From Tribonema minus (lineage: Eukaryota > Sar > Xanthophyceae > Tribonematales > Tribonemataceae), in the NCBI GenBank assembly GCA_017506865.1, contig JAFCMP010000246.1, positions 124,001-188,000 on the forward strand: a DNA stretch of 64,000 nucleotides, read 5' to 3'. Each line of letters starts with the position of its first letter. Position 1 is the stretch's first letter. The notes below the pieces were generated by a model that saw only the letters and a list, made by a program, of their open reading frames with translations, searched no databases and was not told the DNA's origin. This document shows, piece after piece, positions 3,569-62,811 of the stretch. Position numbers and translations under genes: made by a program.

Positions 3569-5859
3569 ATGCCTGCGCCAAACGCAACCATGTTGTCCAG
3601 AGCAGAGGTGGCGACCATAAGAGCGAAAGTGGCGCCGCCACCAGAAACGGACCTGGAGGCTCGGCGGAGGGAGCTCAAGAAGCTGAGCGACGAGAGGGTG
3701 AAGCACTGGCCCAATACCCTGGAGGCGACGCGGATGAAGAAGCAAAATTGGAAGCTGGAAAAAGAACAGAGGCTGGAGGAGGAGAGGCTGCAGATCGACA
3801 GGTGGGAGTGGCGTGGGGCACGCTGCCGTGGTGGTGGCCGGTGTGGTGTGCATGTGTATATTATGGTGCTGCGGGTGCGTGTACATGCTGCAGCGTTGAG
3901 GCGATACGCATCATATGGCGGTCAGCATCGCTCAGGTAGCGTCAAACAGCAAAGCCCTTCAGCATTCGTTGGCAGAGGCGATGTTGGTGACCGCCAGCCG
4001 TTGCCCACACATGATGTCGCAACGCAAACGCAGGCGGGAAGCAGAGCTACAGCGGCAGATGCGGCTGGAGACCATAGCCAAGGCCAATGCTGCGCTCTAT
4101 GAGCAGACAGACAAGATCAAGTCTCTGAGATCTGCTCTGCTCTATGGTGACATCCTGGAAACGAGGGCTGCACAGGTCAGTGCTGCTGCTAAATGCTTCA
4201 ATGTACACTGCAACGTGTTGACTTTGGATCGATGACGATGCTCAGATATGGATGTTGTAGGCACGCGGATTGTGCCAGTGCCCGAGTCGTTGCGGTCCGC
4301 ATGAGGCGCTCCATTGGTCTCTGAGCACAGCAGATAGATGATGCGCTTGATATTCTGTTGACCTCGGCAGCGTGCAGCGAGAGGTGCACGCACGCCAGAT
4401 GTATCATTGCCTCGTGGCACAAAGCTACGTGCGCAGAAGGGGACGCTGTGCGCCGCCAACGCAGTCGTGGTGCCAATGTGCACTCGCGGTGCCAGAGCTT
4501 CATGAAGTGGCGCAACTGACGACGCACTCCACCTATACGCATGGGCGCCTGCTCTGCCAGCCATCAACGCCCGCGGCCGCACTGATCTCCTCCTCTCTCT
4601 TGCAAGCGCAGGAGGCGCAAACACTGCGCGCACAATTCCTCACCGTGCAATGCCGCGTTTTTGACGTTCAGGTCACTCTATAGCCTACACGTGTCTCTGT
4701 GGGCCGCCGCTATGTAGCCGGCGCCGCGCTGCGTCCACGCACACGCGCTTGCGCCGCCGGCCATACTTGAAGTACATGGCACAGTACGAGACCGCGCACC
4801 AGCTCCTCTCTCCCCCCCGCTCTTGCGCTCTCTCTCGCACAAACACACAAACACACATTCTGTATGCGCGCACCGGCTCCTCTCTCCTCCCTGCTCTCAC
4901 TTTCTGTCCCTCTCTCTCACACACAAACTCTCTATGTCGCCATCAGGTGCAGGAGGCGCAGGCTCGGCGCGCGCGCTCCTCGGTGCGCGACGCCGCGTAC
5001 CTGGAGCAGGCGCTGCGCGGCGCGCGCGCGGTGGAGGAGCGCGAGGAGCGCGAGGCGCGCGCACGCAAGGCGGCGTCCGCGACGCTCGCCGCCGTGCAGA
5101 TGGAGCAGCTCAGCGAGTGCAGAGGTAGGGCTGAGCGCTGCTGCTGCTGCTGGCACTGCCGCTGCGCGCGCCGCGATCATCGCCCAGCTGCCGTATGCGA
5201 TGACGTGGGTGCAAGAGTGCTGTCGGTGCAGCGCATGCGTGCCGTCGCGTCGGGCGGGCGTGCGTGCCTTCTTGATGCGCAAGCCGGAATCCGAGACGCT
5301 CGTCGCTGGGTAGATGGGGCAGCTCAGCGCGTGCAGAGGCGCACGGGGTTGAGCGCTGCTGCTGCCGCTGCTGCTGTGTCTGTCATCCAATTGCTGCAGT
5401 GCATGCCATGACACTGAGGGGTAAAGGGTGCTGCCGGCGCGCTGAGTGCTGAGGTGGAGCGGAGTTTGAGCGCTGCTGCGCGCGCCGCCGCGCTCTACTG
5501 CGTGCGGTGCCGCCGGATTGAAAGTGCCACTGGTGTAGGGCGCGTGCGCTGCTGCGTTGCGTGGGTGCGCTTGGCTTTCTGATGCGTCAGGCGGCGCCCG
5601 AGGAGCTCGCCTTGGCACAGATGGAGCAGAGGTAGGGCTGAGCACTGGTGCTGCTGGTGCTGCTGCTGCCGCTGCGCTTGCCGCGGTCATTGCCCCGCCG
5701 CCACACGCGATGCCGTGGGCGTGAGAGTGCTGTTGGTGCAGCAGCGCATGTGTGCCGTCGCATTGGGTGGGCGCGCATGCCTTCTTGACGCGCACGGCGG
5801 CGTCCAAGACGCTCGTCGTCGCGCAGATGGAGCAGTTCAGCGGTTCAGCGCTGCAAGCA

Positions 5860-5893
<34 letters not shown>

Positions 5894-6282
5894 GGCGGCG
5901 CGTGCGCGGCATGCTCATCGTCTGGCCGCCCGTGCATGCGGTGCCGTCGGCGCGAGATGCGATGCCCCCGGCATCAGAGTGTCACTGGCAAGTGTGTATC
6001 CCGATGCGCTGCACGGATGCGCAACTGTCATCCAGACCACAGGCGCATGTGCGCGTGGCGGACAGCGCATGGCAGAGCGCGGCACCGGAAGAGCGCGTCG
6101 CACAGCAGCAGTAGAGCAGCGGCGGGGGGGGGGGGGGAGGGGCGTTGCCTGACGGTAACGCTGTGCACTGCTTGCATACTGTACCCGGAAGCTTGAATGC
6201 CATCCTTTCGGACTGCTGAAACGTATGACGCGGATTGCGTCCGAAAGAGAGCGCGGGCTCGCGCATCGCACTGGACGCACCT

Positions 6283-6314
<32 letters not shown>

Positions 6315-9300
6315 AGCTGCGGTGGCGTGGCCGCCGCCATGGGGGGCGGGGGGGGGGGGGGGGGGACGGGAGGGCGCTGCATCAACTGAGGCTGCAACAG
6401 CCAACACAGCAATGACTAGGCTTTTGCATTGCCATGCCGCAGTGCGCACGTCAAACGGTGCCGGCGCCGCAAGACCGCATCATTCATGCGCTCCGCTGCC
6501 GCACACAGCTGCCCCAAAGTACGTGGCGAGCCGTGTCAAGGACGGCCCTCATTGCAGCGGAGGCGGCAGCAGCGGCGGCTGTGCAGTGTCCACCGGCGCT
6601 AGTGCAACACCTTTGACAATCGACTGCGCGAATGCGCTCCCCGCTGCCGCATACAAGTACGTGGCGAGCCTCGTCGCGCAGCGCGCGGAGGACACGCGCG
6701 TGGTGGCGAACGCAGCGGCAGCAGCGGCTGCGCACTGTCAACTGGCCCTACCGCAAGAAACCTTCAAGTGTGACACCACATTGCTGCAGAACTCTGAGAC
6801 AGTTGAAGAGCACAGTGGCAGGGATGCAAGGTTTTGACCTCCGATAACTGACGACGCGATACAAACCCAGCTGCCGCAGACAAGTACTTGGCGAGCCTTG
6901 TCGCGCAGCGCGCGGAGCGCGCGCGGAGGCGGCAGCAGCAGCAGCGGCGGCGCACTATCAACTGATTCCAGTGCAACACCTTCGATAACTGACGACGCAA
7001 TGTGCTCTCCGCTGCCACAGACAAGTACGTGGCGAGCCTCGTGGCGGAGCGCGCGGAGGGTGCGCGCGTCGCGGCGGAGGCGGCGGCGGCGGCGGTGCGC
7101 GAGCGCGAGGAGGGCGCGGCGGCGCGGCGCCGCGCGCGTGCCGAGATGGAGAAGATGATGGCCGTCAACACGAGCCTGCGCGAGCAGCGCGAGGCTCACG
7201 CGCAGAAGGAGCAGGTGAGGGCCCCGCAAACGCATCATGACGCTTGGTTACTTGAAGTGAAAGCAGCTTAGCTGTGATTTAGTGCTGTCATTTCGATGAT
7301 CATTAAATTTGAAGGTCATGGCGTTGAGTAAGTGGCCGAAGCATAGCTGGGATTGTGTCCTTCCATTTTGATCTTTAGTATGAATTGAGCATTCAACCGA
7401 CTTCAGATGCCTACCCCTTTTGATTGTTTCTTAAAAAAGGCCGCAAACCAGAGAGATGGGACGGAGAAGATGATGTTTGTCACGAGCCTGCGCGGCCAGC
7501 GTGAGTTTAGCGGTTTACAATAGTTACATGCAGGCTGCTGATGTACTTCCCAGAAGCATGCCGCCCTTACAGCCGCACAGTCAACGCCAGCATCATTGTC
7601 ATGGTATAGACTAACAGCTGCTCGTACAATCAGCATGCGTACTGACATGGCAGGCAGGGCAAGAGTGTGCAGTCAATGCAGGCGTGCGAGCGAGGTACGC
7701 GAGCCACGGCTCCGGCGCTCTTCTTCGTTACTCGGCGCGTTCCTCCTGCATGACGCCTGACAAGGCGCATGGCGCCGTGTGCAGTGCCTGACGCTGTGCT
7801 GAGCTCTCATTCATGGGCACTGGCGCGTTGCAACGCGCTGAGCTGACACGCGGCAATTGCGCGTTGAGCACTGAGCGTGATCATATGCTGAGCACTGACG
7901 TGTGACTACGTGTTGAGCACTGACATGTGACCATGCGCTGAGCACTGACATGTGACAAGTGCGTGCTCAACACATGTAATGTGATGATGCTGAGCACTGA
8001 CACTTGACCACGTGCGCGCTGAACGCTGTGACGCGTGACCGTGCGTCGAGCGCTGCGTGGCACGTGAGCGTGCGCCGAGCACTGCTGCTGACCTGTCACC
8101 CACACGCTTCGGACGCTCCGACCGTTTGCCAACAGGAGGAGCTGCAGAGGTGCGAGGAGGAGCGCGGGGCGCTCAACGCGCTGGCGGCGGCGCGCAAGGT
8201 ACGGCTGAGCACTGATATCACTGTTGTCCAATCCAGAACAGACACATACGCCATGTGCGGCCCCGCCTTCCACGTTCCGCGGCCTGCGTACGTTTTGTTG
8301 TCCAAGCATATGTCACAGTGCAAACTGCAAGTGCGCGCTGCACTTCGCGTTGCGCGTGCCCCCTGGCGTACGTGCCCCCCTTCCATGCCTCAATCACAAT
8401 GCTGTGCTGATGATCATTCCTCTGCATACCCGTAGCAGGCCATGAAGGTGCCATGCGGCAAAGACTGGCATGGTCGCTTGACACTGACAAAATCAACATC
8501 AAGCGTCCGAGCTTCCCCTCCGGGGAAGTGATAAGACCAATCCCCCTGTCTGAGTCCTGTGTGTAACCTAACAAGTTCAACATCACGCATACAAGTCTCC
8601 TCAGGGCAGTTGCTCAGATCATTCCCCTGTCTGCGTCCTGTGTGCAACGCCTGACCAGACGACCCAATACCACGCAACACAAGTTCAACATCAACTTTGT
8701 GTATGATTTTTTGACAGGCTCTCGAGGGGTTGCGCTTCCAGGAGCGCCAGGCCGTGCGGCAGGCCATGATCGACCGCGCGACCGCGGAGCTGCTCAAGCG
8801 CAGCGCGGACATCGACAACCGCGAGGTGAGCACTGCTGCTGCGTTCTGCCGCACTTGCAATGCCCACATCATTCTCCGCGGTATCACAGAGAGCAGGGGA
8901 TGCGGAACCTCTGGGCCACTTTTCAACGTTTCTCTGGCAAGTGCCACGGCAGCAGTTTTCGTGCGCTCGCAGCGGCGCACGCAGACGGCAGCAGAGGCCG
9001 TCGCTTTGCGGTGTGTGTGTGTGTGGGGGGGGGGTGGTACCCTTCGCGCTCGGACAGCGGCCGCTCTTAGAAGGCGCACCCCGCGCACAGGCTGGAGCAG
9101 AGCGCCACCCACTGATGCTCCTGAGCACTGCTGCTCGACTGCTGCTCAACCACGTGGTCAAGAGCGCGAGGCCCAGGAGCAGCGCGCGCCAGCCCCTCGC
9201 AGCGCGCACCTCCGCTCACAGGAACGCACACCGTGACGGCCGCGACGCGTCACACTTCCACACCAGACCTGAGCACTGACTCTCGACAAATGCCCCATGC

Positions 9301-10996
9301 GTGCTCCAGGAGCGCGAGGCCAAGGAGCAGCGCGCGCGGGAGGACGCAGAGGCGGAGCGGCGGCGCGACATGCGCACGTGCGAGCACGCGGCCATCGAGG
9401 AGTCGCGCGCGCAGGCGCGCGCCGCGCGCGCCGCGGCGGCGGCGGACGCGCGCCTCGAGGGCGAGCGCATCAAGGCGTACTACAGGCAGTGCGCGGAGGA
9501 GGCCGCGCACCAGGAGGTACGTACGCTGTGCGTGAGATTTGGTGATACCTACCCTCTGCGTGTGTGTTTTTGTCGACATGTGGGTGAATCTGGTGCATGT
9601 ACTACAGTATGGTCAAGGGTACGTGTCTTCAGCGTGTCTGTGGTTGGACATGTTTGCTATGTATCCGAGATTCATCGATGCCTCCCCGTAGTGTGTGTGG
9701 GTGTGTGGTGTGTCGGGGAAGCTGAGTGTGGTCGAGGTTCAGCTCAGCATCGAGTGCATCATGGCGTCATGGCTGCCGTGTGCGCAGGGAGGTGTTGAGG
9801 TATGCCAATACTTCTTGCGCCGCTGAAGGCTTGGAATATTTGCCGTGCCTCAAGTACCGAGAGGATACCATGTGTGTTGCTGCTACGGCAGGGCAATTGG
9901 GTTGAGGTGACTGGCGGTGCGTTTGAGGTGTCATGCGGCAGGTGTGGAGGCAAGGTATGCGTGCGCATACATGCACGCATACCTGAACGAACCCTAACCC
10001 TAACCCTAACCCTAAGTATTGCTAGTGCAGATGCGCATCACTGCGGGCCATTGCATAGGTCTACGAATGAGCACTATGCGTTAAACCATTAACGTACCTG
10101 ACGTAACAGACTGCTACGCATATAGTCTACCCGTCAGCACCATGCCTGCATCCATCCTCAGCGTCACCGACACCACTGATCAACGACGCCTCGCATGCGT
10201 GTGTCTGCAGGAGGCGGAGGCTGCGGAGGCGCTGCGGCGCAACCTCGCCGTCAAGGCCAGCCAAGTGGAGCAGCGGAGAGAGGCTCGCGAGAGGAAGGCC
10301 CTAGAAGATGAACGCCAGGTACCTGGATTGAGCCCCTGCCCCAACCGTATCTTGTTGTAGACGTGCTAATCCTGTGCAACTTTGCGCCAAGTGCTGCATC
10401 GCACTTGCAACAAAGGCTAGACGGCAATGCAGGCGCCAGATACCAGGCTCCGAGCTGCCTCGACTGTAGCAATGATGCCTGTATGGTGAGTCATTGGTGA
10501 CGACCCGTCATCTTGAAAATGTGAAGGCCCCATCCACGCACAACGGCGTGTAGGCGTGCAAGAGGTGCTCGCTTCTGCGGGCCCGCAAGCCGTACTGAGT
10601 GGGCGGCGCCGCTTGTATGCGGTCTTATGCGCGGTCATGCAGTACGAGTGGAGACGCTCTCACCCTCATTGTAACCGCAACTGCCCTACCTTGAGCGGTG
10701 CCGAGCGGCGACCGCAAGGCGCCGCCAAAACCTGCGCGCAACCAAAAAGTCGTACCGGGCACTGAGCACCGCTGCTCGCACGCGCGCGCTCTGTCGCTCT
10801 CTCGCAGGCGGCGCAGCACGCGCGCCTGGCGGCGGTGGCGGAGGAGGAGAAGCGGCGCTTCGCGGCGGCCGCGCAGGTGCACGCAGACGAGCTCCAGGCG
10901 CACGGCAGGAGCACCTACATGCTGCGCCGCGCCCTCGAGGACGCCAAGATGGCGCTGCCCGCGGCGGACGCGGTGGCAGCGCCCAGCGGCGCCTAG
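3569..10996 (+). CDS. CFAP210: CFAP210/CCDC173-like ciliary coiled-coil protein (9 exons)
   Basis: Nine exons join in phase to a protein of about 473 residues: 3569-3801, 4034-4175, 4947-5124, 7021-7214, 8136-8198, 8718-8825, 9310-9516, 10211-10318 and 10808-10996 (stop TAG). The N-terminus has LSRAEVATIRAK, then DERVKHWPNTLEATRMKKQN and EEERLQIDRREAELQRQ, then IAKANAALYEQTDKIKSL and SALLYGDILETRAAQ. This order (acidic start, W-x-NT-L block, YxQTDxIK block, L-x-E-R-x-A-Q) matches the CFAP210/CCDC173 family of trichohyalin-plectin-homology coiled coils. Known members are microtubule inner proteins bound in the ciliary doublet. The rest is almost unbroken charged, Ala-rich coiled coil, and the human protein is of similar size. 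The exon 3 start could be 4953 instead of 4947 (both phase 0). An upstream coding exon cannot be excluded. Family call is from motif memory only; another TPH coiled-coil ciliary protein is the main alternative. Confidence 0.7.
5084..5850. repeat. Intronic copies of exon 3 end plus donor (CFAP210-like gene)
   Basis: The real exon 3 end (5084-5124, gacgctcgccgccgtgcaga then tggagcagctcagcg) and its donor are echoed at about 5294-5345, 5605-5640 and 5800-5845. Each echo keeps the gatgg-gcag core and at least one keeps a gaggtagggctgagc donor-like segment. Between the echoes the spacer (CTG-rich, then ccgtcgcgtcgggcggg-type sequence) is also repeated. The copies contain stops or frame breaks and so are intron, not exons. 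Confidence 0.75.
6480..7020. repeat. Intronic copies of exon 4 acceptor and start (CFAP210-like gene)
   Basis: Exon 4 begins at 7021 with acaagtacgtggcgagcctc after ccgctgccacag. Related copies of this acceptor-plus-exon segment occur at about 6495-6620, 6640-6735 and 6865-6975, including the downstream Ala-coding gcggcagcagcgg stretch and the following gtgcaacaccttNgataa segment. The unit is about 150-200 bp. The nearest copy to the real exon (6865) encodes nearly the same residues (KYLASLVAQRAE) before breaking down. Confidence 0.8.
7455..7500 (+). repeat. Decayed copy of exon 4 end
   Basis: The stretch gacggagaagatgatgtttg followed by tcacgagcctgcgcggccag repeats exon 4 positions 7145-7190 (gagatggagaagatgatggc, cgagcctgcgcgagcagcgc) with a few changes, and runs into gtgag. 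It lies about 240 bp downstream of the real exon in the following intron. Confidence 0.65.
7858..8095. repeat. Minisatellite of ctgagcactg-type units
   Basis: About eight imperfect units of 25-30 bp built on ctgagcactgacatgtgacc lie just upstream of exon 5 (8136). One unit (near 7967) is in inverted orientation (gtgctcaac). The core matches the motif scattered through other introns in this window. Confidence 0.75.
8485..8700. repeat. Imperfect tandem repeat in intron upstream of exon 6
   Basis: Two clear units and a partial third share ccccctgtctgagtcctgtg and acaagttcaacatca segments, with a spacing near 105 bp. They end just before the exon 6 acceptor at 8717. No coding potential. Confidence 0.55.
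9158..9200 (+). repeat. Decayed copy of exon 7 start
   Basis: The sequence gagcgcgaggcccaggagca followed by gcgcgcgcc copies the first 30 bases of exon 7 (9310 onward, gagcgcgaggccaaggagca then gcgcgcgcg). It lies about 150 bp upstream of the real acceptor. Confidence 0.7.
9991..10015 (+). repeat. Interstitial telomere-like (CCCTAA)4
   Basis: Four perfect CCCTAA units lie inside an intron of the CFAP210-like gene, between exons 7 and 8. The position is internal to a gene, so this is not a chromosome end. Confidence 0.9.
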
Positions 10997-21958: not shown

Positions 21959-24900
21959 ATGTTCGATGGAGCCTCAGACGATGAGGACATCCCCAAGGTG
22001 AAAATCCCAATATCCACCAGATGGCGTGTGTGTGTGCGCTGGGTGACAGTTCGCTCTTGCGTAAGCCTCATCACGCATCAGTTTCAGCTCTCGATCCACT
22101 CTGCGATGTGCAGGTGTCACCACCCCTGTCCACGGATTACTGCACCACCTGATGCTCTGCTTGGACTTCATGATCACGCGACTGAACTGCACAATTCGCA
22201 CGAATCAGAGCTGTAGCTCGCGCTGCCGCACTATGAATGCATCGTCGTGCTGGCAACTGCACACTGCGCATGCATTCCTGTCTCGAGCGTCACTCCCCCA
22301 CTGTGCCACGCCCCCGCAGGTGCGAGTCAAATTCGTCACCAAGCTGGCCTCCATCAGGGTGACGGACCTCCCCATAGCGGTCCCGGAGACCCTCGGCAGG
22401 TACGGCCTCAGCGAGGTCGTAAACCACCTGCTCGGGCTCAATGCCGACACCAGCGCAGCTGCCGCCGCGCCGCACGATGCCGCGCCGCCGAGCAGCAAAG
22501 CCCCCATCCCCTTCGACATCCTCATCGACGGCCGCTTCCTGCGCACGTCGCTCGCGCGCTACATGCGCGCGCACGCCGTCAGCGGCGAGACCGTCCTCGA
22601 GCTGGAGTACCTGCCCGCGCTGCGCCAGCCCACGGAGGAGTCCGCGGACACGCAGCCGGACTGGGTGAGCGCGCTCGCGGCGTGCGCCGGCGCCGCGGGA
22701 ACAGGCGGGGAGCGCGTCGCAGGACCGTTCCTGGCGAGCGCGTGCTACGACGGCTGCCTGCGCCTGTACGGCGCGAGCGGGGGCCTCGACATTGCGCACA
22801 GCGCGCGCGTGTCGGCGCAGCCGCTGACGGCGCTGGCGGCGGCGGCGGGGGGCGGGGCGGGGGGGGGCGATGATGCGGAGCGCTGCTGGCTGCTGGCGGG
22901 GGGGAAGGACAGGGGGGTGAGCCTGTGGCGCGTGAGCGGCGGCGAGCAGCGCATGCTGGAGCAGGCGGCGGTGCTCAGCGGGCACCAGAACAGCGTCGCC
23001 GCTGTGAGCTTCTCGCCGGCGGGTGCAGGTGCGTGCGCATTTCCGTGTAATTCGGAGCATCTTATGGTGGAATTGAGAGTACAGTGCACTGTTGTGCATG
23101 GTGATGTATTTGATGGTATATCGCAACCGGGTAGCATGGTCTCTGAAGGAGCAGAAGCGTTGGGGCCAGTGAGGCAGTGCCACTGCTGCCATCCCCCGTG
23201 TTACAGCCGTAATTGTTCCGACCCCGCTGGTAGGAGCAAAGCGCTCTTGGTCTCAGAGCGAAGTATTTGTGTGGCATGATTACATATGTAGGTAGATACT
23301 GTAAGCTACTTTATAACAGAACTGCCAGCATGTGTGCGCGAGCACTCACTGGAGTGTACAGCAGCGCTCCACGCGCGTCAGCAGCGCAAGTTTGCACGCA
23401 CATTGCCAGCTGGAGGCGCGCAAGTGCATGCGGCACGACTCGGCAGGCGTGAAGATCACAGCTTGACGTTGCGGCCGTCGTCGCGGCGCTTTTGCCTGCG
23501 TTTTACTTACTGATGTGGACAGTGCAGGACGGTATCGCGCTAATTCGCGTCAGTCTGGGGTGAAGGCGTACACGCCTCAATGAGGGTTAGGGCTAGCGCG
23601 GCGCTCATCTTGTCACCTCATGCAGAGCAGTCGCTGTCCTACATGTTTATTGTACGCTGGCCGTGCGCAATATGTCGTGGCAAAGGGGGGGGGCACACTA
23701 CATAGCAATGCTAAATCCGCGTGCTGGAGCCATACACCTGAAGCTATCTTCAAGGAGTGAAATAAGATAGTGCGTGTCAACTGCACGCATGACAAAACAA
23801 TGTTGTCGCGATACACAGCGTTCTGACAGGTGGCGGTAGAATCGACACTGAGCTCGCGGATGTTTGGCGTTTGACGTGGTGTTGAACACTTCCATTGACA
23901 AATATGCCTGAGAGCGTTGTGCTAAGGAGAGGAAGGTTGTCAGCAGGCGGATCGGACAACCTAAACATCGCTGCAAGATCATGTCCAAGAAGAGTCACTT
24001 GACACCAGACGCTGTCAAAAGTTATGGACGGAGCTGGCATTACGCTAAGCGTTACAGGGCAGGTGTGCGAGGGACGCCTGTGTAGCGTCACACTCCAGAA
24101 GCACTGCAAGCTGATACAGCACTTCAACTTCAATGTCAAAACGCCGCACCATGCGCACGAGCCGAATCTCACAGTCACTGCGATACGCATGCTGTCATGA
24201 CAGGCGGGGCGCACGCGGCAGCAGGCAGCGGCAGCGGCGGGCGCGCTTAACACGAAGAGACACCGCACAGACAATCGAGCTAAATTTCACGGTCACCGCG
24301 ATGTGCTCCGTTATGACGCGCTTAGCGCATACGCCATAAGTTGCGGCCCGTAAAGGACCATTGAGCTGACTATCACAGACACCGCGATACGCAATCTGTC
24401 ATGACAGGCGGGGCGCACGGGGCAGCGAGCAGCTGCGGCCGCGGCAGCTGCGCTTGACGCACAGACGCTGCAACAGACAAAAAAAAAGGAGCTCACTGTT
24501 ACAGTCACGGCGACATGCTCTTTTTACAACACGTCAACGCAGCGACGCCGTAACGGGAACTCGCCGCGATGCACGATCTGTCTTGACAGGCGGAACGCAC
24601 ACGGCGGCGAGCGGCGACTGGGACGGGCGCATGTGCCTGTGGGACCTGGCGGCGGCGCAGGGCGCGGCGGGCGCGGACGCGGAAGCGGGCGGGCCCGGCG
24701 TGAAGCGCAGAAAACGGGCAGCAGGTGCGCACTCGAAGAAGACTTCAAGAAGTATATAGTAGAAGCGGGCGGGCCCGGCGTGAAGCGCAGAAAACGGGCA
24801 GCAGGTGCGTACTTGAAGTGCTTACTTATGCATGACTGATGTCCGTGGTGGTGGCGTGATCAGTGCGTGACTCGTCGTGGTGATCGAATGTCAGGCATGC

Positions 24901-42420: not shown

Positions 42421-45400
42421 TCACACGGCGACGCGGTGAGTCTCTGCCATGCCTGCGTGCGCGGCCACGGTCTCTGGCTGGTGGTCCGCGTGTTGTTGCT
42501 GCAGCTGGTGCGACGGCTGCTGCAGCGGAGCCACAGCAGGCACAACCACGTGGTGCTGCTGCTGCTGCTGCTCGTGGTGGTCCTGCTGTTGGTAGTAATG
42601 CACCGGCGCATGCTGCTGCTGCTGCTGTTGCTGGTGGTGGTGGTGCGACATTGGTTGATGCAGCTGCTGCATCACTGGCTGCTGCTCTTGCACAGGCTGC
42701 TGCTGCTGCTGCTGCATCTGCTGCACATCCGCCGGCGAAGGTGCCAGCGCCGCCGCTGCTGGCGCCGCCGCCTGCGGTGGCTGCAACTGCATCGGCCACA
42801 GGGCCTGCTGCTGCAGCAGCGCCCCGTGCTGCTGCTGCTGCTGCTGCTGCTGCCACGACCCCTGTAGAGGGGCGGCCACATCATTTACCGCCACCGTGGG
42901 CATGGCCTTGCCGCTGGGGCCGCCGCCGCCGCTGCCACCGTTACCACATGCAGCCGTTGTGAACACGACCTGCATATCGGCGCCGGCGCCGCGCACGGCG
43001 ACCGGCGGCAGCGGCGCCGCCGCCGCGTGGGAGCAGCGCGCCGCGACCGCCGCCGCAAAGTCCTGCAGCGCCAAATCGCCGCCGCCGCTGCCGTCGGCAG
43101 CAGCGGCGTCGTGGGGGAGGCCGGCGAGGCGTCGCCGCGTATCCGCGTCCACGTGCGTGTAGAGAAGCGTGATGCAGTGGCCGAGGGCGTCGAGCGCTGC
43201 TGCATGGCCGCGGCGCGCGGCCTCGGCGTCCACCTGCGGAGCGGCACCGCGCGCGAGAGGGACGGCGGCGAAGTGGTTTACCGACGGCTCAGCGCTAGCA
43301 GACAGGGGATGGTGGCTTCTGCCTCAGCACTGTGCTCACTACGTGTACTGCGCCAGGAGTATTTACAGGTGCCTTGAAAGTGTTGAGCACTGCAATGTGG
43401 CTGCCCTCTACCTCGATTTGCATGCTGTCGCTTCAAGCGAAAACGAACACCAGCACAGACCTGACATTGCGCTCTTCCTCTGATCACAAGGAGATCGTTA
43501 CTTCTCGATGACAGCAAACCAACATGCGATGTCATGAGCCATGACCACACTGCACTCCAACAGTACATACACGGTACTGTTCGTGTACAGTAATGTACAG
43601 TACATACCTTATCGTCAGGTGGCGATGGCGGTCTGGTGCGTTTACGCGTTCTGGTGGCGGTTGCTTTTGCGGGGGGAACCGCGGCGGCGGTGGCGGCCTC
43701 TGCTTCGCCCGCTGCTGCAATCTGCTGCTGCTGAGCGTCATCGTTGGTGCTGCACAAGTGCAGAGGTCACGGAGGCAAGAATTCATAAAGGTTGAGTTCT
43801 AACAAGCGCACTTCCTGAACTTTGATGATGGATGCCAAAACCACAGCACATCAACTATGGTACAGTTTGCCATTGCCAATTTTTTTTAAAGATAACTTGA
43901 AGTATATGATGGCTCAGCTGGCGGCGGAGACCGGAGTATAGCAGCAGGTGTGCAACCCCAGTCGCCACTGTGCACAGAGCACGACCATTCGCCCCTGTCC
44001 CGAAGCAGCACAACCACATCTGCAGCAGCCCGTGCCCCGGCCCGCCCCCCCGCCGCCATCCACACACAGAACAACGACAACGACGCAGCGCGCACCTCTC
44101 GCTCTTGGCGCGCCGCCCGCCGCCGACCGTCGCCGTGCGCATGGCGGGGTTCGTGCCGATGACGGCGCGCGACAGGTCGAACAGCTGCGCGTACTTGACG
44201 GGCGCGTCCGCGGCGCACGGCGGGTTCACGCTGAGCGCTGCCGACAGCTCCGCGGCGCCGGCGCTCCACGCGCCGCCGGCGCTGCGCAGCGACACCACGA
44301 CGTGCGCGGCGCGCGCCGCGAGCGGCGTCCCCGGCTCCTGCGCGCCCGCAAGCAGGATGCGCGAGAGCGCCTCGTACTGGCGCTTCGCCTGCAGATGCAG
44401 TGGAGGAACGTCGTCAGTTGAGGTTGGAGGTGGTGAGGGTGTTGCGGAGCAAAGGCGCGCTGCTGTGCGCAGCGGTGCGCTGCGAGCAGTCAGTCGACGT
44501 CGCGAGCGGGGGCGCGAGAGGGAGCGCCTGCCACTTTGCCTACGCGCGCGGCTGAGGAGAGTCGCCATGTGAAGATGAATGTGCAGCAGCGCGGTGCGCT
44601 GGGTGTTAGCTCGATGCGGAGCGCTGCGTTTATGGCGCGCTGCATGCCGTGGGCCTGCGCCCGCGCTCGCTGCGTGGGCAATGGCGCCTCCCCGTGCCGC
44701 TTTGCTCACGCCTGAGGAGATGTACTACTGAACTGCTGACCATAATGGAAGGCCTGAGCAGATGTACTACTGAACTGCTGACCATAATGGAAGCCCGTAC
44801 TGCGACGGGCGCGCTTGTGATCTACCTGAATTACCTGTGCGCAAGACAAATCTGACATGCCCTGGGTGTACTTCGTCCTCAGCGGCAGCCCAGGTCTCAA
44901 CACACGGCAAGTATTTGAAGTACACTTAGCGCGCTACCGCAAGCGGCGACCCACCAGCACGCGCGGCAAGTCCGATATGCCCTTGGTGAAGTACGCGCCG
45001 AGCGGCAGCACGGGCCTGTCCTACTTTCAAGCACACTAAGCGCGCTACCGAAAGCGGCGACTAACCCGCGCACGCGACGAGTCTGACATGCCCTCGGTGA
45101 AATGCGCGCCCAGCGGCAGCGTGCGCCTGACGTACTTCAAGTACACTAAGCCCGCTACCGCAAGCGGCGACTCACCCGCGCGCGCGGCGAGTCCGACATG
45201 CCCTTGGTGTAGTACGCGCCCAGCGGCAGCACGGGCTTGACGTACTCCAAGTACACTAAGCGCTACCGCGTACTTCAAGTACACTAAGCGCTGCCGCAAG
45301 CGGCGACTCACCCGCGCGCGCGGCGAGTCCGACATGCCCTCGGTGAAGTACGCGCCCAGCGGCAGCGCGGGCTCGACATACTTCAAGTACACTAAGCGCT

Positions 45401-47580
45401 ACCACGTGATTCAAGTATACCAAGCGCTACCGCAAGCGGCGACTCACCCGCGCGCGCGGCGAGTCCGACATGCCCTTGGTGTAGTACGCGCCCAGCGGCA
45501 GCGTGCACTTGACGTACTCCTAGTACACTAAGCGCTACCGCGTACTTCAAGTACACTAAGCGCTACCGCAAGCGGCGACTCACCCGCGCGCGCGGCGAGT
45601 CCGACATGCCCTTGGTGTAGTACGCGCCCAGCGGCAGCACGGGCTTGACGTACTTGAGCCACAGGTCCTGCGGCGGCAGCGCCGGCGTCGGCAAGTCGTA
45701 CAGCGCGAGCTGCGCGAGGATGGCCTCCGGCGGCGGCGGCGGCGCATCGTACGACGGCGGCAGAAACATGCCCTGGCGCAGCCCCCACAGGCGCAGCATG
45801 TAGATGCCCACGGCCGCCAGGACGGGGACCTCGTCGCGCTTGCTGAGCAGCATGCTGCGCGCGGGGGGGGGGGGGGGGGCGAGGCGAGGGGGCGTCATTG
45901 GTGTTTTTTGGTTATTATTTCGAAAGGCCTGTTTTGTTTTGTTTTGCGTTAGTTTTACTAGTTTTAGACTTCTACTTCTGAAGAACATTCAATAGTATTT
46001 AGTTAATTCCATAAGTTCCATTCTTTTCTTGTAAACATTCATGAAAAGATGGCCAATTGCCGCAGCAGCGGTGACCATGGTTATTGGTGGAAGGCACTTG
46101 CGGCTGACCATCCCTTGGCACCTAGAGCTCCAAGTACAATTTTTTGCTTTGTTTTCATTACCCATTCAGGGTTAGCATCACCGCATCCTATCAGGCACCA
46201 GAGTGCCTGCTGGTATGTACATACACTGGGGATCTACAGTGGCGAGTAAGGCATGCTGGCAGAAGTGACGTGCTGCGGCGGACGGAGGGCAAATGATACG
46301 CGCGCACGCGCAAATGGGGCTCGTGGTGGTGGGATGACGCGCAACACGTTTTGACATGTCATTGATGCATCATTGACATGTCATCGAGATGTATTGCGCC
46401 AGATGTCACATACTGCTGACCAGCATGCTGCGGGGACGCGACAGAGAGCACGCGCGCGCGCAAGAGTGGGGTGCTGTAGTGTTTGGAGCGTTTCTTTCAC
46501 GTGCAGGGGGCGCGAGGAAGTTCGAGATAGCGGGGGCCGCGTGCTCGCTGAAAACGTCGAATGCCACGCAGGCACGTATCGCACGGCATGTGACGTACAC
46601 GTGTGCTTGTGAGATTGGAGCTGGTGTGCATCAGCGCGTGCGCACCACAAAGCATTCAGCGGAACACAGGCCTTGGCGCTGGTGCACACCTGCCAGCGCT
46701 CCTTTGCCGCCCTCGGCCATCGGCCTGACGTCTGCGTGCAGCCCATCCGATGTTCGACCAGAGCATGCTGCAAGACAAAGCTTCTACTTCGAAGTACTTC
46801 AAGTTCATCCAGTGCGCGCTTGCAGCCTGGCGCCGTGGCCGTCGTCCGTGACGTCCACCCGCATTCCCTGCGGCCGACGCACCACATGCACCACGCTGCA
46901 CGTGACTTCAACTTCAACTTCAGCTTCAACACGCACCTGCCAGTGCTCCACAGCCCCGGCGGCGGCGACGCCGTCGCCATGACCCCCAGGTCCACCTGCA
47001 CCTCGTCCGCCCTGTTCATCCAGACCTTGAACTTGCCGTTCTCGAGCTTCTACCACACCGCGTCGCACGTGACTGCAACTTCAAGTTCAAACACGCACCT
47101 GCCAGTGCTCCAGCCCTGGCGCCGGCGGCGCCGTGGCCATGACCCCCAGGTCCACCTGCACCCCGTCCGCCCTGTTCATCCAGACCTTGAACTTGCCGTT
47201 CTCGAACTTCTACCACACCACGCTGCACGTGACTGCAACTTCAACTTCAAACTCAGCGCTCACCTGCCAGTGCTCCACAGCCCCGGCGCCGGCGGCGCCG
47301 TCGCCATGACCCCGAGGTCCACCTGCACCCCATCCGCCCTGTTCATCCAGACTTTGAACTTGCCATTCTCGAGCTTCTGGAAGCCGCGCACGCCGGGCCG
47401 CAGATTGTTCTCCAGCGGGTGGTCCGACTCCTTGAGCGAGAGCGCAAACGCCTTGCGTAAGGAGATCTCGGGGTCCTGGCTGGGGGGCGCCTGGCTGGGG
47501 GGCGGCCCCGGCGAGCGCTGCTGCTGCAGCAGCGCGACGGCGGCCGCGTCCGCTGCCTCCATCTCAACGCCGCCGACCAT
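42421..47580 (-). CDS. Unrecognised minus-strand protein with Gln-rich C-terminus (5 exons)
   Basis: Exons complement 47264-47580, 45584-45854, 44096-44388, 43608-43749 and 42421-43233 join in phase to about 611 residues. The start is taken as ATG at 47580, but an acceptor-like gcgcag precedes it, so an upstream exon is possible. The protein begins MVGGVEMEAADAAAVALLQQ. Next come PGVRGFQKLENGKFKVWMNR and ADGVQVDLGVMATA, then DEVPVLAAVGIYMLRLWGL, YDLPTPALPPQDLWLKY, KRQYEALSRILLAGAQEPG, a basic RTRKRTRPPSPPDD segment (nuclear-signal-like), DAEAARRGHAAALDALGHC, and a long tail of poly-Gln, His and Pro. The RGFQ..NGKFKVWM...VDLG segment faintly recalls the beta-sheet of an AP2/ERF domain, but the following exon lacks its usual helix, so I do not assign it. 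The Gln-rich tail and basic patch suggest a nuclear or RNA-related role; this is inference. Two introns contain arrays of exon-edge copies. Confidence 0.6.
44712..44795. repeat. Two tandem 42-bp units
   Basis: Two nearly perfect copies contain agatgtactactgaactgct and gaccataatggaag, differing at two positions. The repeat is intronic on the minus strand. Confidence 0.9.
44830..45583 (-). repeat. Six copies of a minus-strand exon end plus donor
   Basis: The exon complement 45584-45854 ends YVKPVLPLGAYYTKGMSDS, PRAR, then donor gtgagtcgcc. Copies of this end and donor (plus strand: cgactcacccgcgcgcgcgg, cgagtccgacatgccc, tacgcgccNagcggcag) occur at about 45437, 45304, 45166, 45056, 44946 and 44830, becoming more divergent with distance. 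Each is separated by tacttcaagtacactaagcg. Period is about 105-140 bp. Confidence 0.92.
46687..47263 (-). repeat. Copies of the first exon end plus donor in the following minus-strand intron
   Basis: The first exon's 3' half (KLENGKFKVWMNRAD to the donor) is copied at 47096-47213 and 46935-47051, both close to identical and each with a preserved donor (cacctgccagtgctc on the plus strand). A further decayed copy begins near 46687 (cacctgccagcgctcc) and extends to about 46870. Copies are separated by tgacttcaacttcaacttc-type sequence. Confidence 0.9.
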
Positions 47581-48561: not shown

Positions 48562-48599
48562 TCAGGCATCGGCGGCGGGCTGCCAGCCTGTGGTGGGTG

Positions 48600-56726: not shown

Positions 56727-57350
56727 CTGCGTGCAGCGAAACAGGTGGCGGCGCGCTGTGGTCGGCGTCGGCAGCAGCGTTGGCTGCCAGTCAATCGGCT
56801 GAAGTATCTACTTCAAGTAGTCCATTCTGGTACACTTTATGACGCAGCGATTCTGACGCACTGCTGTTGCGCCCGCAGGCGACAAGTACGTCGAGATCCT
56901 CACGCAGACCGTCACCGCCGCCGGTGTCGGCGGCAGCGTCGGCTGGCAGTCCATGACGGCCCCCGGCAACGCATCCGAGTGGGCCGCCAAGGTGGTACCC
57001 GTCTGTGCCAGCCTGGCAGAGGGGCGATACCGCGTGACGGACGTGGGGGACTACGACGGCGATACCTACCCTGATTTCGTCGTGATCGCCAACGAGTCAG
57101 ACGCGCTCAGCGTGAACATCATGACGCTCTCGTAAGTGCGCGCGAATGTAGAGTGGGGGGGATTGCGGTGGTCACATCTGCCTACTTTTGTCGTGGTCGC
57201 CAACGAGTCGGACGCGCTCAGCGTGAACGTCATGACGCTCGTAAGTGTGCATAGGGGGGGGGGGGGGGGTGCGATGGTCATACCTACTCCTGAATTTGTT
57301 GTGACTGCCAACAAGTCTGGCGCGCTCAGCGTGCATGCCCTGACATTTTT
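56727..57350 (+). repeat. Exon-edge copies on both sides of VCBS exon 56879-57131
   Basis: Upstream, 56735-56800 (ggtcggcgtcggcagcagcg, ttggctgccagtcaatcgg) copies the exon start region. Downstream, 57178-57245 and 57286-57355 copy its end and donor (gccaacgagtcggacgcgct, cagcgtgaacgtcatgacgc, then gtaagt or gtgagt). A G run separates the downstream copies. A further start copy of the next exon is at 57492-57525 (gctgccagggacgtgcc). Confidence 0.85.
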
Positions 57351-59323
57351 GTGAGTGCAAATGTATGGACATGCACAAATCGCCAAAAGCTGCCGCGCTT
57401 GCCGCCTTTTGTGAGCCATGGCACACCCCTTGGCAGGACACTCATTGGTGCCATTTTCTCGGAGACTGTTGTGTGCTGCTGTTATTGCGCTAGCTGCCAG
57501 GGACGTGCCATTGCTGCCGCCTGGCGCACTTGTGCCTTAAGCCCAATATCCGATAACCCCGTCCGCTACATGGGCGCAGACTTCTGCATGCTGATACCCG
57601 CTGCCTTTCTGCGCGCTGCCAGGGACGTGCCGTCGCTGCCGCCGACGTATTTGCGCCTCAAGCGCGAGAATGTGACGGGCGACACTAGCCCCGGGCTGAG
57701 CAGCACGCGCCTGGTGCGTGTCGATGCCGATGCGGACGTGGATCTGCTGGCATACTTCAATGACAACTCGAAGAACCTGACATGGTGAGGTTGCTGCTGG
57801 CACGTGATCCAGTGGTGAAGTTGTATACTCTGTGCAAGTTTCACTGTGATGATTGGAGTCAGTGCTGATCATCACCAATGGTGCGGATCGCCCCTGAACC
57901 TCACTGCTGGTGCGGCTGAGAGTGTGCAAGATTTGACCTCACACACTTTCAATGATGAACGTTGTTCAACATTGCAGCATTCAGCATTCAGCATTACCAG
58001 TGCAAAATGAACAGAGAATACTTTGCAGCTCTTGTTGGTTGAAAGAAAGCACAAGAACCGAGAGGGAATTGAGTAACCCTGCTTAACGATGTGCGTTTAC
58101 ATGTGTGTATGAGGTCCAACTACCAGCACCGAGGATGCTGGAGGCCGTGCACTGGCGCCAGAGTCCACTCTGCTGTACGCGTCGCGCCTCAGAGGGCAGC
58201 ATGCAGCTAAATCAATCAGTGTTTTTCACTCGTATATACCCCCCCCCCCCCCGCCCCTGCATGCTCTACCCGCCTCAACACGGTCTCGAAGAGGCTCATA
58301 CCGGTTGCTATTGCTCGAAGGCTGGTTTGCACAGCACTGTCGCATGCACTCCTCAGCTGCACCTTCACATGCGCATTTTTCCTATGGCCTTGCAGGCTGT
58401 CAAGCAGCGTCGCGACCTCGACTCCCACCGAGGCCCCGACCACTGCTCAGCCCACTGCCCAACCGGAGAGCCCGGCGCCAGAGCCAGTCTACATTTCCGG
58501 AACGGCTGCAGGTAAAGCGTGGTCAGCAGGAAAAGAGCTCACAGCAGTACACGACAAGGCTTATCATACGTAGCATGCAAGCAAGCACCCTCATCCTGGA
58601 CCTGAGCGATGAGGCACCATCAAGCTTGCTCCCATAAAGTTGCGAGTTTGTAATAGGACGCTGCCGGGCACCTGCTCTCACTGGACGTTCAAGTATCAAT
58701 TGATTGAAAACGCCATGCCAAAAAATACGCTCAACATGCGGGCTAGCAGGCTCCCACATATGTATTTGGTGCGCGTCACTCTGCGCACTCGCCGTTGCGT
58801 GCAGCACTGCAGTCAATGAGCAACCTGGAGCGCTACAGTATGCCTAGCCCTAACTACTTCCCTCAGCACTGCAGTAGCCTGACCCTATGACCGCCATTGT
58901 CACCTCAAGCTCCGCATTTTGGCTCTCCCCCAGTCCACTTACGACCCTGCTCGCAACGGGACAGCGGCAACTGCCACAGAGGTGCCGCTGCAGCAACGCT
59001 CAGCAGAGGCTCCACCCCAGCGCTGCCACCGCTGCATGCACGCCTCTGCCCTCGGCCCAGGGGACACGCTGAAGCAGCGCTCACCTCTGATGGCCCGTTG
59101 ACTCACCTGCGATGCGTGACGAAATCGTGCCGGCGAATGCCTGTGTGCACTCAGCCTGCTTGCGCTGCGCATCTTTCAATCGAAGGCGCCGCCGCATCAG
59201 CGGCGGTTGGCGTTGGAGTTGCGGCAGCGCTTGGCGCGAGCGCTGCCGCGGGGGCGGGGGCGGGCGCCGGGGCGGGGGTGGCCGCGGGGGCGGCAGGGGG
59301 GGCTGGCGCAGGGGCAGGGGCAG
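56879..59323 (+). CDS. VCBS-linker-Gly/Ala segment, plus-strand middle part of the VCBS-TRP gene
   Basis: Plus-strand exons 56879-57131, 57623-57784, 58396-58511 and probably 59186-59323 join in phase. They encode DKYVEILTQTVTAAGVGG, VTDVGDYDGDTYPDFVVIAN (an FG-GAP/VCBS metal-loop pattern D-x-D-G-D-x-x-x-D), LVRVDADADVDLLAYFNDNS, a STPTEAPTTAQPTAQPESPA linker, and a Gly/Ala-rich hydrophobic stretch (AASAAVGVGVAAALGASAAA) that could be the first membrane segment. There is no upstream plus-strand exon that could start the protein, since the exon at 56879 requires one base from a previous exon. It looks like the missing middle of the gene whose ends lie on the minus strand. A separate truncated paralogue is the alternative. 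The last exon is the least certain. Confidence 0.6.
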
Positions 59324-59814: not shown

Positions 59815-59955
59815 GAGCGTCACCACATGCTGCATTGATGAGCATCATCAAGTCTGCATTGATGAGCATCACCAAGTCTGCATTGATGAGCATCACCACA
59901 TGCTGCATTGATGAGCATCACCAAGTCTGCATTGATGAGTATCACCAAGTCGACG
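59815..59955. repeat. Minisatellite, five 24-bp units
   Basis: Five or six units of ctgcattgatgagcatcacc aagt (with caca or tcat variants) lie in direct tandem. The repeat falls at the right side of the plus-strand block, close to the inferred inversion breakpoint. Confidence 0.9.
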
Positions 59956-59981
59956 TGTGCATCACGTCCCTGCGCGCTGAC

Positions 59982-62811
59982 CGGCGGTGACGGTCTGCGT
60001 GAACACCTCGACGTATTTGTTGCCTACAGGCGTATCACACCAGTGCATTAGAATTGTGGCGTCGTCAAGTTTACCATATCGTGTATATTATGATATCGTG
60101 GACCAGATAGCCAATAGCACTTCTGAATGACACTGTTGGCAAGGCCCTCGAATTTACAGGTGCGCTGCACCACGAGTTGCATGACCGGAAGTGCGCAATT
60201 TACCGTGACGTGTATACTGTGTCATGCGGTACAGGCTCGAACATGTTGAACTCTGTGGGTCAACGGCCGGTATAATTACGGCCAGCTGCTGCTCCGAGTT
60301 GACCTGGCCGCTCAGGGGCTCAGGCGGTACCGGTGCATAAACTTTGACTTTGAACCTGCCATGTGTGCACGACAAGCCGAGTGGCAGGCTGCACCATGTG
60401 CGCCGCGTATGGCCCATGCCGCGGTACAATTGGTCAACTTGAGGTGCACAAACTTGAACTAGCGCTTACTGTTATGCATCTGATGATAAGCAGCATCTGC
60501 AACTGCCACCATTGCCATGGCCAATTTCTGTAGAACGCAACGGCGATTTCGTGACTCCATCTTAACAGATGTGGGAGATCATACACGCGCAGGATGTTCA
60601 TCCCTGGCATTGTGACTCTCCGAGTCCTCTTAAGCATCATGCTGAGGGGTCTGCATGCACAGTGGTCACCACCCGCAGACCGCTGCCGCAGCATCACACC
60701 GTCGCACACTCGCTATCAACATCATGGCCACCACCACGGCAGCATTCGTATCCAGCGCTGCCAGTAGGTTTGATACAGCGTACAGTTGCAACGCTAGAGA
60801 TTGAAGTTGATGCAGTCAAGTTGAACTACCGAGGTGACGCTCACCGTCAATGTCCACGGGGCATGCCACGTCAGTGCCCGCTCCGGGCACGTCAATCTTC
60901 TCAAAGAGTATCGGCGCGAGGCCGTTGTTGATGTACACGGAGAAAATGGAGGTGATGTCGCCCACAACGTTCTGCGTTGCGCGCGGAGGGCACACCGAGC
61001 GACTTCAGAATGCACCCCAGGCGTATAAGTGGGGGTCAGGTCATAAACGACACCTGCAAAAATGTAATCATGCTGGCGGCGCCCATGGGCCTTCAACTTG
61101 AACTTTGTGTGACAGATGCACCTGAGGGCGCAAGTCAACTGCCTGCAGGCAATCAAGTCTGCGTCTTGTGAGTGTTGTATGTTTACTTCACGGTATGTGC
61201 AAGGAGCAGCTGTGCTTGATGCCGTACCAAGGGTATGCACGTATGTGAATGGCAGAGCAGTTACTATAATGCCAGGCGCCATGAAGAAGGTTACGCTGCA
61301 TGTCACCACGTTTCTACCTGCAAAACATCTGCACTCACTGCGTCACATGTCCTGGGCACTCCGTTTCTGACTGCTGCCGGACAAGTGCAGATTTTGACAT
61401 TGGCACTTCAAGCCGCACGCTGATCGGGATCTGCTGATCCTGGGCTGCCCTCAACGCAGCACTGTAACACCATCCTGACGACAAGACCGGAAGTCCAGCA
61501 AGTGTGAGATATGGCCCATGACATGGTGCACTGCATGCCAGCAGCAGCACAGCGGTGCCATATTGTGTGCCTGCAGCACCAACTTGAACGCTTGCCAGCT
61601 GAGCGCTGCTGCTCACCGGATTGTTGCCTGCGGAAATCAGGTCCAGGTGGCCATCGTTATCCACATCCACAATGACGCTGCACCAGAAGTTCAGAGGGTC
61701 GTACGTAACCGCCATCATGTTGCTGGGGTCTTGGCCTGTCGCCCAGACCTTCAGGTTGTTGCCTCCCGACCAGAAGCCGCGCTCGGGCCCTATATTCCTG
61801 TTCCAGTACATGAGCTGCGGTGAGCAGCAGCGGATGCAGCGCCCAACGACACTCGAGCTTCAACTGACAGTACTTTTTTTTAATGGTGATGCCAGAACTT
61901 TCAGGCACTTCAACGTATTGTGGATCGTCCACAAGCACTCGTCGGCAAGTTTGTGTGCGAGTGGGAGGGGTCAGGGCAGCCGCGTGGTGTCACAGTGCTC
62001 AATGGCGAGCCACTTGAAGTTTGACAGTAGGTTGAGGTTAGCTAGATGATGACGTGTGAGCGAGATATCTGACAGCACCTATGGCATCATAATGCGGAAA
62101 TGGCCACAGGACAGAAGGCTGGCCCGTTGTGTTGCAATGCTGGGCGATATGACCTCTGATGGCGGTTTCAAAGCGCATTTGAAGCCACAGTGACTGCGTG
62201 GCATCGGCTAGCTGACACTGCACGAGAGGTCAGTTGACGGTGGCTATGGCATTGAAAGATACAGGAGTGGTGACGCTCTGATCATGCAAGTCTCGCAATG
62301 GACTCCAGATGAGGATCTTACCCAGCCCTTTACCTTATAAGCTTAGCCTCTACACCTTATCCTGACCCTTAGCCCTCTTTTGAATCCTTGGCCTAACCCC
62401 CTATGTAACGTCAACGCGCACCCACTCACCCCGTTCGCCGAGAACACCATGTCCGGCAGGCCGTCGCCATCGAGATCCACGATTTCCAGATACCCAATGG
62501 CCACCGGCGCGCCGGCGAACTCGCCGCCGTACTCAAGTGCCGCGGCGAGCGCGTACGACGCCGTTGCGGCATCGCTCAGCCACGTGTACACCATGTGCGA
62601 CGCGAATGCGTAGCCGGGCAGCGTCACGTTGACCACGGCGACGACGTCTAGAGTTCCATCCGCGTTGAGGTCGCCCGTGCGTATGGCGTCCACGGATTCG
62701 CCGTCCCCGACGGCAAGGACGTCAGCAGCAATGCTCAGCAGGTTGAAGCTGGGGGCTGCGGCGGCGTCGAGGCCGCCGCGGAGGACGGCGACGCCGCTCG
62801 GCAGGGCGGCG
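59982..62811 (-). CDS. FG-GAP/VCBS repeat region, N-terminal part of the VCBS-TRP gene
   Basis: Minus-strand exons: complement 62430 to about 62811 (acceptor uncertain), 61616-61814 and 60845-60971, with a short segment 59982-60023. They encode IRTGDLNADGTLDVVAVVN, then YLEIVDLDGDGLPDMVFSANG; LMYWNRNIGPERGFWSGGNN, then WCSVIVDVDNDGHLDLISAG; and NVVGDITSIFSVYINNGLAP, then CPVDIDG. These D-x-(D/N)-x-D-G-x-x-D loops are the calcium-binding pattern of integrin-alpha-like FG-GAP/VCBS blades, normally extracellular. Phase from the first to the second exon fits. From the second to the third it does not, so an exon is missing between 60972 and 61615. The 59982-60023 segment (NKYVEVFTQTVTA) is nearly the same as the start of the plus-strand exon at 56879 and is probably an exon-edge copy, not a true exon. 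Upstream exons may continue beyond the window. Confidence 0.6.

Follow-up and report, generated by a model that had tools for sequence, protein, structure and literature searches.

Copied exon borders in the window

The window, a 64,000-nucleotide stretch of the genome of Tribonema minus, a yellow-green alga (ochrophyte), contains genes in which exon edges recur, together with their splice sites, in the adjoining introns (Table 1). A preliminary description named 13 such borders and assigned them to at least six genes. Five genes are counted here, because the minus-strand exons at 45584 and 47264 share one gene according to collinear matches of the ortholog P0023. This protein matches exon 47264-47580 and two of its copies separately.

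The named borders were scored by aligning each 60-nt exon edge with its own flank, the null being 69 flanking stretches from other loci aligned to the identical edge. Donor arrays at 5124, 24724, 26855, 57131, 45584 (minus) and 47264 (minus) scored 70-120, against null maxima of 24-31. Acceptor scores were 77 at 7021, 51 at 9310, 54 at 26715, 42 at 57623, and 44 at 286 (minus; null maximum 34). Eleven of the 13 borders stood above all 69 null stretches. The acceptor at 24590 was marginal on exon bases alone (27, null maximum 24), with two copies emerging once intron bases are included, and the acceptor at 56879 (24, null maximum 27) did not rise above the null. Wrong-side scores did not exceed the null maximum except at 7021 (39) and 9310 (38); for both, the flank on that side starts within the same exon.

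Table 1. Exon borders and their intronic copies in the window.
Feature	Position	Strand	Remarks
Exon, TPH-domain gene	4953-5124	+	Predicted; the annotated protein P0024 of T. minus matches it; 3' edge and donor copied downstream
Donor-edge copies of exon 4953-5124	5278-5874	+	Clearest at 5278-5365 and 5791-5874
Acceptor-edge copies of exon 7021-7214	6508-6952	+	6508-6578, 6627-6733, 6870-6952; exon from prediction and protein comparison
Acceptor-edge copy of exon 9310-9516	9153-9189	+	
Two weak acceptor-edge copies of exon 24590-24724, WDR12-like gene	24180-24244, 24383-24433	+	Marginal on exon sequence alone
Seven donor-edge copies of exon 24590-24724	24762-25522	+	Skipped in P0001
Three acceptor-edge copies of exon 26715-26855	26332-26623	+	
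Four donor-edge copies of exon 26715-26855	26947-27449	+	Skipped in P0001; degenerate TTAGGG abundant in spacers
Six donor-edge copies of exon 45584-45854	44833-45518	-	110/136-bp units; ortholog P0023 has segment once
Tandem copies of 3' part and donor of exon 47264-47580	46889-47263	-	~160-bp units; TRF
Donor-edge copies of exon ending 57131	57132-57353	+	~111-bp units; TRF; limits partly by eye
Acceptor-edge copy of exon starting 57623	57490-57545	+	Limits by eye
Acceptor-edge copies of exon 185-286	451-683	-	451-497, 645-683

Frequency, architecture and specificity of the arrays

The frequency of edge copies was measured in 256.5 kb, comprising the window and 192.5 kb of other contigs, with exons predicted ab initio by a self-trained exon finder. 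The first outside sample (142.5 kb) came from 15 contigs picked by number and read from base 50001 (14 pieces of 10 kb plus a single 2.5-kb piece; 15 of 20 chosen positions existed). The second (50 kb) comprised 5 of 120 randomly drawn places. One fetched stretch, L001, lay inside the window and was excluded from the sample, while every other (L002-L016 and L017-L021, respectively) was used. From 216 predicted exons, the 152 scoring at least 10 were retained, and exclusion of edges with less than 150 nt of flank or an exon shorter than 30 nt left 120 donor and 119 acceptor edges.

Copies on the predicted side of the adjoining intron were found for 28 of the 120 donor and 17 of the 119 acceptor edges, against a null of about 0.8-1%. 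Wrong-side copies numbered 4 and 3, respectively, and mid-exon 50-mers, used as a control, had copies in 1 of 44 and 1 of 44 cases. Outside the window, 22/86 donor and 13/86 acceptor edges were copied (null 0.8-0.9%), although 10 of 21 loci lacked any edge copy scoring above 34. The observation is real and extends beyond the window. Both the excess over chance and the rule that donors are copied downstream and acceptors upstream were borne out in this sample. The strict orientation follows from geometry, since only copies on the intron side of the used site can be spliced out. Extrapolated very roughly from 216 exons in 256.5 kb, the 158-Mb genome would hold some 130,000 exons, with copied borders numbering in the tens of thousands.

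The copies lie head to tail, as expected if tandem duplication had repeatedly crossed exon-intron borders. Spacers between neighbouring copies were homologous in 60 of 72 comparisons (gapped alignment, above the 97.5th percentile of 40 draws), and significant homology was lacking in the other 12. The duplicated unit therefore includes intron, and copies run across the border into it, as in the border-spanning units of 'mirage' minisatellites. A reading in which only edges are copied, drawn from ungapped profiles whose similarity was lost within ~14 intronic nt, was dropped in view of the gapped comparison. Edge-to-edge periods had a median of 144.5 bp (quartiles 128-171), and the first period was 100-200 bp in 28 of 35 arrays (median 144). 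Local repeats comprised 233 direct pairs (<600 bp) versus 14 inverted pairs (<500 bp), 11 of the latter at <50 bp.

Each array appears to be private to its own exon, as had been proposed, in the four arrays and 95 introns compared. In DNA searches of the whole genome, which pass over very common words, three of four array stretches matched their own locus only, and the fourth matched elsewhere only through a telomere-like spacer. Among the 95 introns, 30 of 31 between-locus matches were 21-37 nt long, several of them at a CCCTAA-type array (9990-10015), and the remaining match was an 84-nt dispersed element. Neither comparison revealed a sequence family common to the introns of many genes. Introners are present in algal genomes, yet these results leave next to no credence for the insertion of mobile elements, introners included, at the borders, and this explanation was rejected.

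Decay of the copies and use in splicing

Mismatches fell at 9.3, 9.7 and 15.4% of codon positions 1, 2 and 3 of the copies, and 31 of 95 copies carried a frame-shifting indel. This is the pattern expected when an exon under constraint is copied and the copy evolves neutrally, and the copies show neutral-looking decay. The copies could instead be alternative or mutually exclusive exons, or remnants of whole-exon duplication. Near-identical copies do persist (five of six in the 45584 array at 86-100% identity, the last at 75%), the exon finder called 47099-47171 and 46937-46995 as exons, and the mismatch rate at third positions is 1.6 times that at the other two. However, positions 1 and 2 each mismatch at more than 9%, almost a third of copies are frame-shifted, and P0001, P0024 and the ortholog P0023 carry the segments once. 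Copies that reach the border are also partial, covering 43-66 nt of the exon (quartiles, with a search maximum of 70; mostly <100 nt in another alignment), and consequently seldom carry both splice sites. Arrays of coding exons are thus very improbable and were rejected.

The suggestion that divergence grows with distance from the exon did not generalise. The within-array permutation test gave p = 0.15 (23 arrays with at least two copies), and the mean rank correlation was -0.07 (15 arrays with at least three). The trend is present at 26855 (-0.8) and 45584 (-0.77), and weak at 24724 (-0.4).

Many copies retain plausible splice sites, which raises the possibility that they are kept as decoys whose extra donors or acceptors regulate splicing or expression. 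Splice dinucleotides are intact in 39 of 45 donor and 19 of 27 acceptor copies. On a position matrix, donor copies score 4.9, compared with 6.0 for real donors and -0.95 for 4453 intronic GTs, and 21 of the 45 equal or exceed the real site in strength. Nevertheless, real sites outscore copies on average (p = 0.005 for donors, 0.018 for acceptors). Retention is also close to that expected under neutral decay at the identity of the exon part (43/47 versus 37.6 expected, z 2.05; 22/25 versus 19.9, z 1.1), counts that lean upward because alignments end at mismatches. Functional decoys are accordingly quite improbable.

Comparison with annotated T. minus proteins covered two genes, and in both (P0001 and P0024) the models splice past the copies. 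The claim that only the exon-proximal site is used thus agrees with these two annotated models. The nearest donor copy usually lies 100-200 nt from the called site. With 21 of 45 donor copies matching or exceeding the called site, yet the exon-proximal one used in the two annotated genes, the arrays offer a natural experiment on splice-site choice.

Lengthening of introns, also proposed earlier, is direct at each array. The 25 array introns have a median length of 1136 nt, versus 520 nt for 95 others (p = 0.006), although the excess is not significant against introns of at least 150 nt (median 625; p = 0.12).

Intron growth and comparison with known systems

Intron interiors carry local repeats too. 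Among 50-mers more than 100 nt from an edge, 14-21% have a local copy (null 1.1-1.7%). Nearer than 100 nt to an edge the rate is 27.6%, against a null of 3.7%, and it declines to 14% at distances above 1000 nt, where the null is 1.1%. Age-matched young copies were found at 14 of 231 edges and 69 of 2897 interior windows (p = 0.004); each intron window enters the latter total once per direction, and windows from a single array are not independent. Position-blind duplication would not yield such an excess. Borders might be duplication hotspots, over and above general tandem duplication, because of transcription, R-loops, exon nucleosomes or a TTGAAGT word after donors. This is a possible but rather doubtful explanation. 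The age-matched excess holds for donors (9/116 versus 37/1493, p = 0.004) but not for acceptors alone (5/115 versus 32/1404, p = 0.19), and the match assumes that intron pairs diverge twice as fast, while indels hamper their detection more. The genome-wide excess of TTGAAGT/GTACTTGAAGTAC is real (492, against 45 for the pattern read backwards), and 7/20 array donors have TGAAGT no more than 60 nt away, versus 14/118 other donors (p = 0.015). However, enrichment at unit junctions is weak (24 matches in 2470 nt versus 30 in 5449 nt, with arrays not independent), and the word was set aside as a duplication seed. Borders are perhaps at most 2-3 times hotter than interiors and not clearly special, and the local repeats within introns leave a process directed at exon edges unsupported.

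The arrays are very probably of mirage type, produced by local tandem duplication. Where a unit spans a splice site, its duplication would be tolerated because splicing removes every such site except the exon-proximal one, and introns lengthen as a result. Tandem layout, orientation, the side rule, excess over the null, neutral-looking decay, own-locus specificity (four arrays) and annotated skipping (two genes) support this reading directly. Duplication, mostly of 100-200 bp, would act throughout the introns of this alga. A unit over a donor would place extra copies downstream of the used donor, and a unit over an acceptor would place them upstream of the used acceptor. Removed as intron, these copies would be free to decay, and every event would lengthen the intron. 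Replication slippage, template switching or unequal exchange could generate the units, whose size, near nucleosome or Okazaki-fragment length, may hint at breakpoints. The exon-proximal site may be preferred since the other exon end defines the exon. A broader version seems unlikely, namely that border duplication of nucleosome-sized units of ~145 bp is a main, continuing route of intron growth and affects borders in the tens of thousands, chromatin or Okazaki-fragment size fixing the breakpoints and splicing having to choose by position among several equally strong sites.

Intron growth is usually ascribed to transposons. The Tribonema arrays point to another route, in which introns become longer and the correct border would still be chosen in splicing. 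With private tandem duplication, each added copy can be dated individually, since the exon with which it is compared hardly changes.

Several known systems resemble these arrays in part. Introners likewise reshape introns on a large scale, algae included, but are described as one sequence family copied into many genes (PMC9860276), whereas each tested Tribonema array is private to its border. Intron gain by tandem duplication, as outlined for potato RdRp (PMC4974935) and Drosophila (PMC2891723), also involves splice signals. Those cases create a new intron from a duplicated exonic AGGT or an intron-exon piece, while the Tribonema intron pre-exists and grows, and the used site stays. Exonic duplication creating a new intron (Rogers) differs in that Tribonema units include intron and a splice site. 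The 90-bp LRR arrays of Tetrahymena are tandem units of exon and intron, but multiply whole, still-coding exons (PMC6564038); in Tribonema, exon pieces turn into intron.

The closest match is with the 'mirage' minisatellites of amphioxus, so the pattern, for which no named description had been recognised, already has a name. Two reports (PMC3087553, PMC3902484) describe them in Adh3, the globins BflGb6 and BflGb9, troponin C and PGBD5, the first citing Canestro et al. 2002 for the original description. They are tandem duplications over the exon-intron border at either exon end, with units of 150-160 bp in BflGb6 (identity 81-100%), 157 bp in BflGb9, 10-72 bp in Adh3, and 60 and 108 bp in PGBD5. 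Many copies retain splice signals, regular splicing is reported as undisturbed, and the mechanism is called unclear. Length instability between haplotypes or cells is reported, and a wider phenomenon is suspected beyond this handful of lancelet genes. Tribonema shares border-spanning arrays at both exon ends, with unit sizes resembling those of BflGb6 and BflGb9. It differs in lineage and in scale, with copies at roughly one in four of the donors and one in seven of the acceptors tested, in one assembly, with null, side and neutrality controls. Among the matches listed from the open-licence literature (titles and abstract starts), none reports border duplications in Tribonema or other ochrophytes. 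New here are the lineage and the controlled measurement of frequency. A mirage pattern with globin-like unit sizes in an ochrophyte suggests that the underlying mutational process is general and not peculiar to lancelets.

Edge copies in the sampled loci

The Tribonema minus genome comprises 158.18 Mb in 554 contigs, and the window occupies positions 124001–188000 of contig JAFCMP010000246.1. The sample analysed here, which adds 20 stretches from elsewhere to the window and totals 256.5 kb, covers 0.16% of the genome, with multiple tests being run on modest counts. Exons were predicted by a self-trained finder combining a coding Markov model, splice-site matrices and exon chaining, which returned 216 exons. 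It recovered all six exons of P0001 (an annotated WDR12-like protein) and all nine of P0024 (JKP88DRAFT_245526, a TPH-domain gene) that tblastn locates in the window, some terminal or late ones being truncated. When joined, four window exons of the WDR12-like gene match P0001 at 99% identity over the full length of the joined exons. The second gene matches P0024 at 94% over 98%, and the mismatches, judged by eye, lie at exon ends misplaced in the drafted model. The finder also fuses adjacent genes, calls as exons two copies from the array beyond minus-strand exon 47264–47580, and misses the exon that ends at 57131 and the one that starts at 57623, both on the plus strand.

For exons scoring at least 10, the outermost 50 nt at each edge were compared by alignment with up to 1500 nt of the flank beside it, and the cut-off was the 99th percentile of a null made up of 30 alignments per edge to flanks from other loci. 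On the intron side, 28/120 donors and 17/119 acceptors exceeded it, as against four donors and three acceptors on the wrong side, which upholds the preliminary description's claim that donors are copied downstream and acceptors upstream. Mid-exon controls from long exons exceeded it in 1/44 and 1/44 cases. Outside the window alone, the counts were 22/86 donors (binomial p ~1e-24 at 1%) and 13/86 acceptors (p ~4e-12). At least one edge copy scoring above 34 occurs in 11 of the 21 loci, window counted; the effect is patchy, since the other 10 have none.

Anatomy and decay of the arrays

Copies stand head to tail: successive post-copy spacers are homologous in 60 of 72 cases, which supports the proposed tandem duplication across exon–intron borders. 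The median edge-to-edge distance is 144.5 (quartiles 128–171), and with one period value per array, 28/35 fall within 100–200, by a method nearly blind to units well below 60 bp. Local repeats away from edge arrays are of similar size range, with short units commoner (50–100 bp clusters: 25/99 outside, 7/89 within). Local repeats are direct rather than inverted, small hairpins aside. The proposal that each array is private to its own exon held in whole-genome searches with four array stretches, which matched only their own loci, save one telomere-like spacer.

In 95 copies from 44 arrays, the exon part differs from the exon by 9.3/9.7/15.4% at codon positions 1/2/3, and 31 copies carry a frame-shifting indel. 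This pattern points to neutral copies of a parent whose own changes are largely synonymous. The dinucleotides of the splice sites are retained at an approximately neutral rate; by matrix score real sites are stronger on average, while 21/45 donor copies score at least as high as the real site. The duplicated segments are present once each in the annotated proteins of two genes, and once in P0023, the 45% identical ortholog of a third, from which exclusive use of the exon-proximal site, as previously suggested, is predicted.

Borders, intron interiors and other repeats

Local copies were found for 27.6% of intron 50-mers less than 100 nt from an edge (null 3.7%), 21% at 100–300 nt, 18% at 300–1000 and 14% further (null 1.1–1.7%), and for 5–13% of presumed intergenic sequence. 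Exon copies are more readily recognised than intron copies, since decay affects just one member of the pair. With ages roughly matched, the edge excess was 2.6-fold (14/231 vs 69/2897, p = 0.004), significant for donors (9/116 vs 37/1493) and not for acceptors alone; these p values are too favourable, as windows within one array are non-independent. The arrays probably reflect a general local duplication process in which borders take full part, donors possibly holding some excess beyond it. The side rule needs no separate mechanism, because splicing can remove only those copies that lie intron-ward of the site in use.

Every copy lengthens its intron by its own length, and detected edge arrays span ~12 kb of the sample. 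The claim that duplication lengthens introns stands in that sense, and median length is 1136 with edge copies (n = 25) vs 520 without (n = 95; p = 0.006); the difference weakens when the 77 introns of 150 nt or longer serve as the reference (625, p = 0.12).

Several further repeats were observed (see table). Genome-wide, 492 occurrences of GTACTTGAAGTAC, a near-palindromic word, stand against 45 for its backward-read pattern. Within 60 nt downstream of 138 donors, TGAAGT occurs at 21, its reverse complement at 8 and the control TGATGT at 2. No longer element was common to 54 contexts of ACTTGAAGT. Telomere-like 10-mers rank among the sample's most over-represented, and one copy in stretch L014 seems to carry a telomere-like insert directly after its donor.

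Other repeats in the window (L numbers denote other stretches of the genome)
Position	Feature	Elsewhere
24811, 25034, 45552(-), 47086(-)	Examples of GTACTTGAAGTAC	
26860–27600, 9990–10015	Intronic degenerate TTAGGG/CCCTAA telomere-like runs	L011, L009, L017
12561–15223 and 17536–19822	Large tandemly duplicated region whose repetitive reading frames look PPR-like; blocks near-identical	
32548–33791	Reading frames with (T/A)(A/E/K)PT runs, upstream of predicted exons encoding HEMGHVLGF, presumably a zinc-metalloprotease-like motif	
46050–46160	Short dispersed element, ~60–130 nt	Recurs in L003, L006; linked matches in L013, L017, L021
63009–63507	~500 bp, probably a dispersed repeat	L003:7400–7895, 96% identical

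Relation to known tandem repeats

Calls by Tandem Repeats Finder take up 7.8% of the sampled sequence, and for Ectocarpus a paper puts tandem repeats at 3.35% of the genome (PMC12477816), an unmatched comparison. The preliminary description knew of no named system of this kind, yet one has been named: in two amphioxus reports, tandem duplications of exon–intron borders are called ‘mirages’. Their units measure 150–160 bp in two globin genes and are smaller in Adh3 and PGBD5; they occur at either border, splicing is reported to be normal, and the mechanism is described as unclear (PMC3087553, PMC3902484). The Tribonema arrays fit the structural definition of mirages. What they add is a remote lineage, a frequency measured with controls, neutrality and a unit-size distribution.
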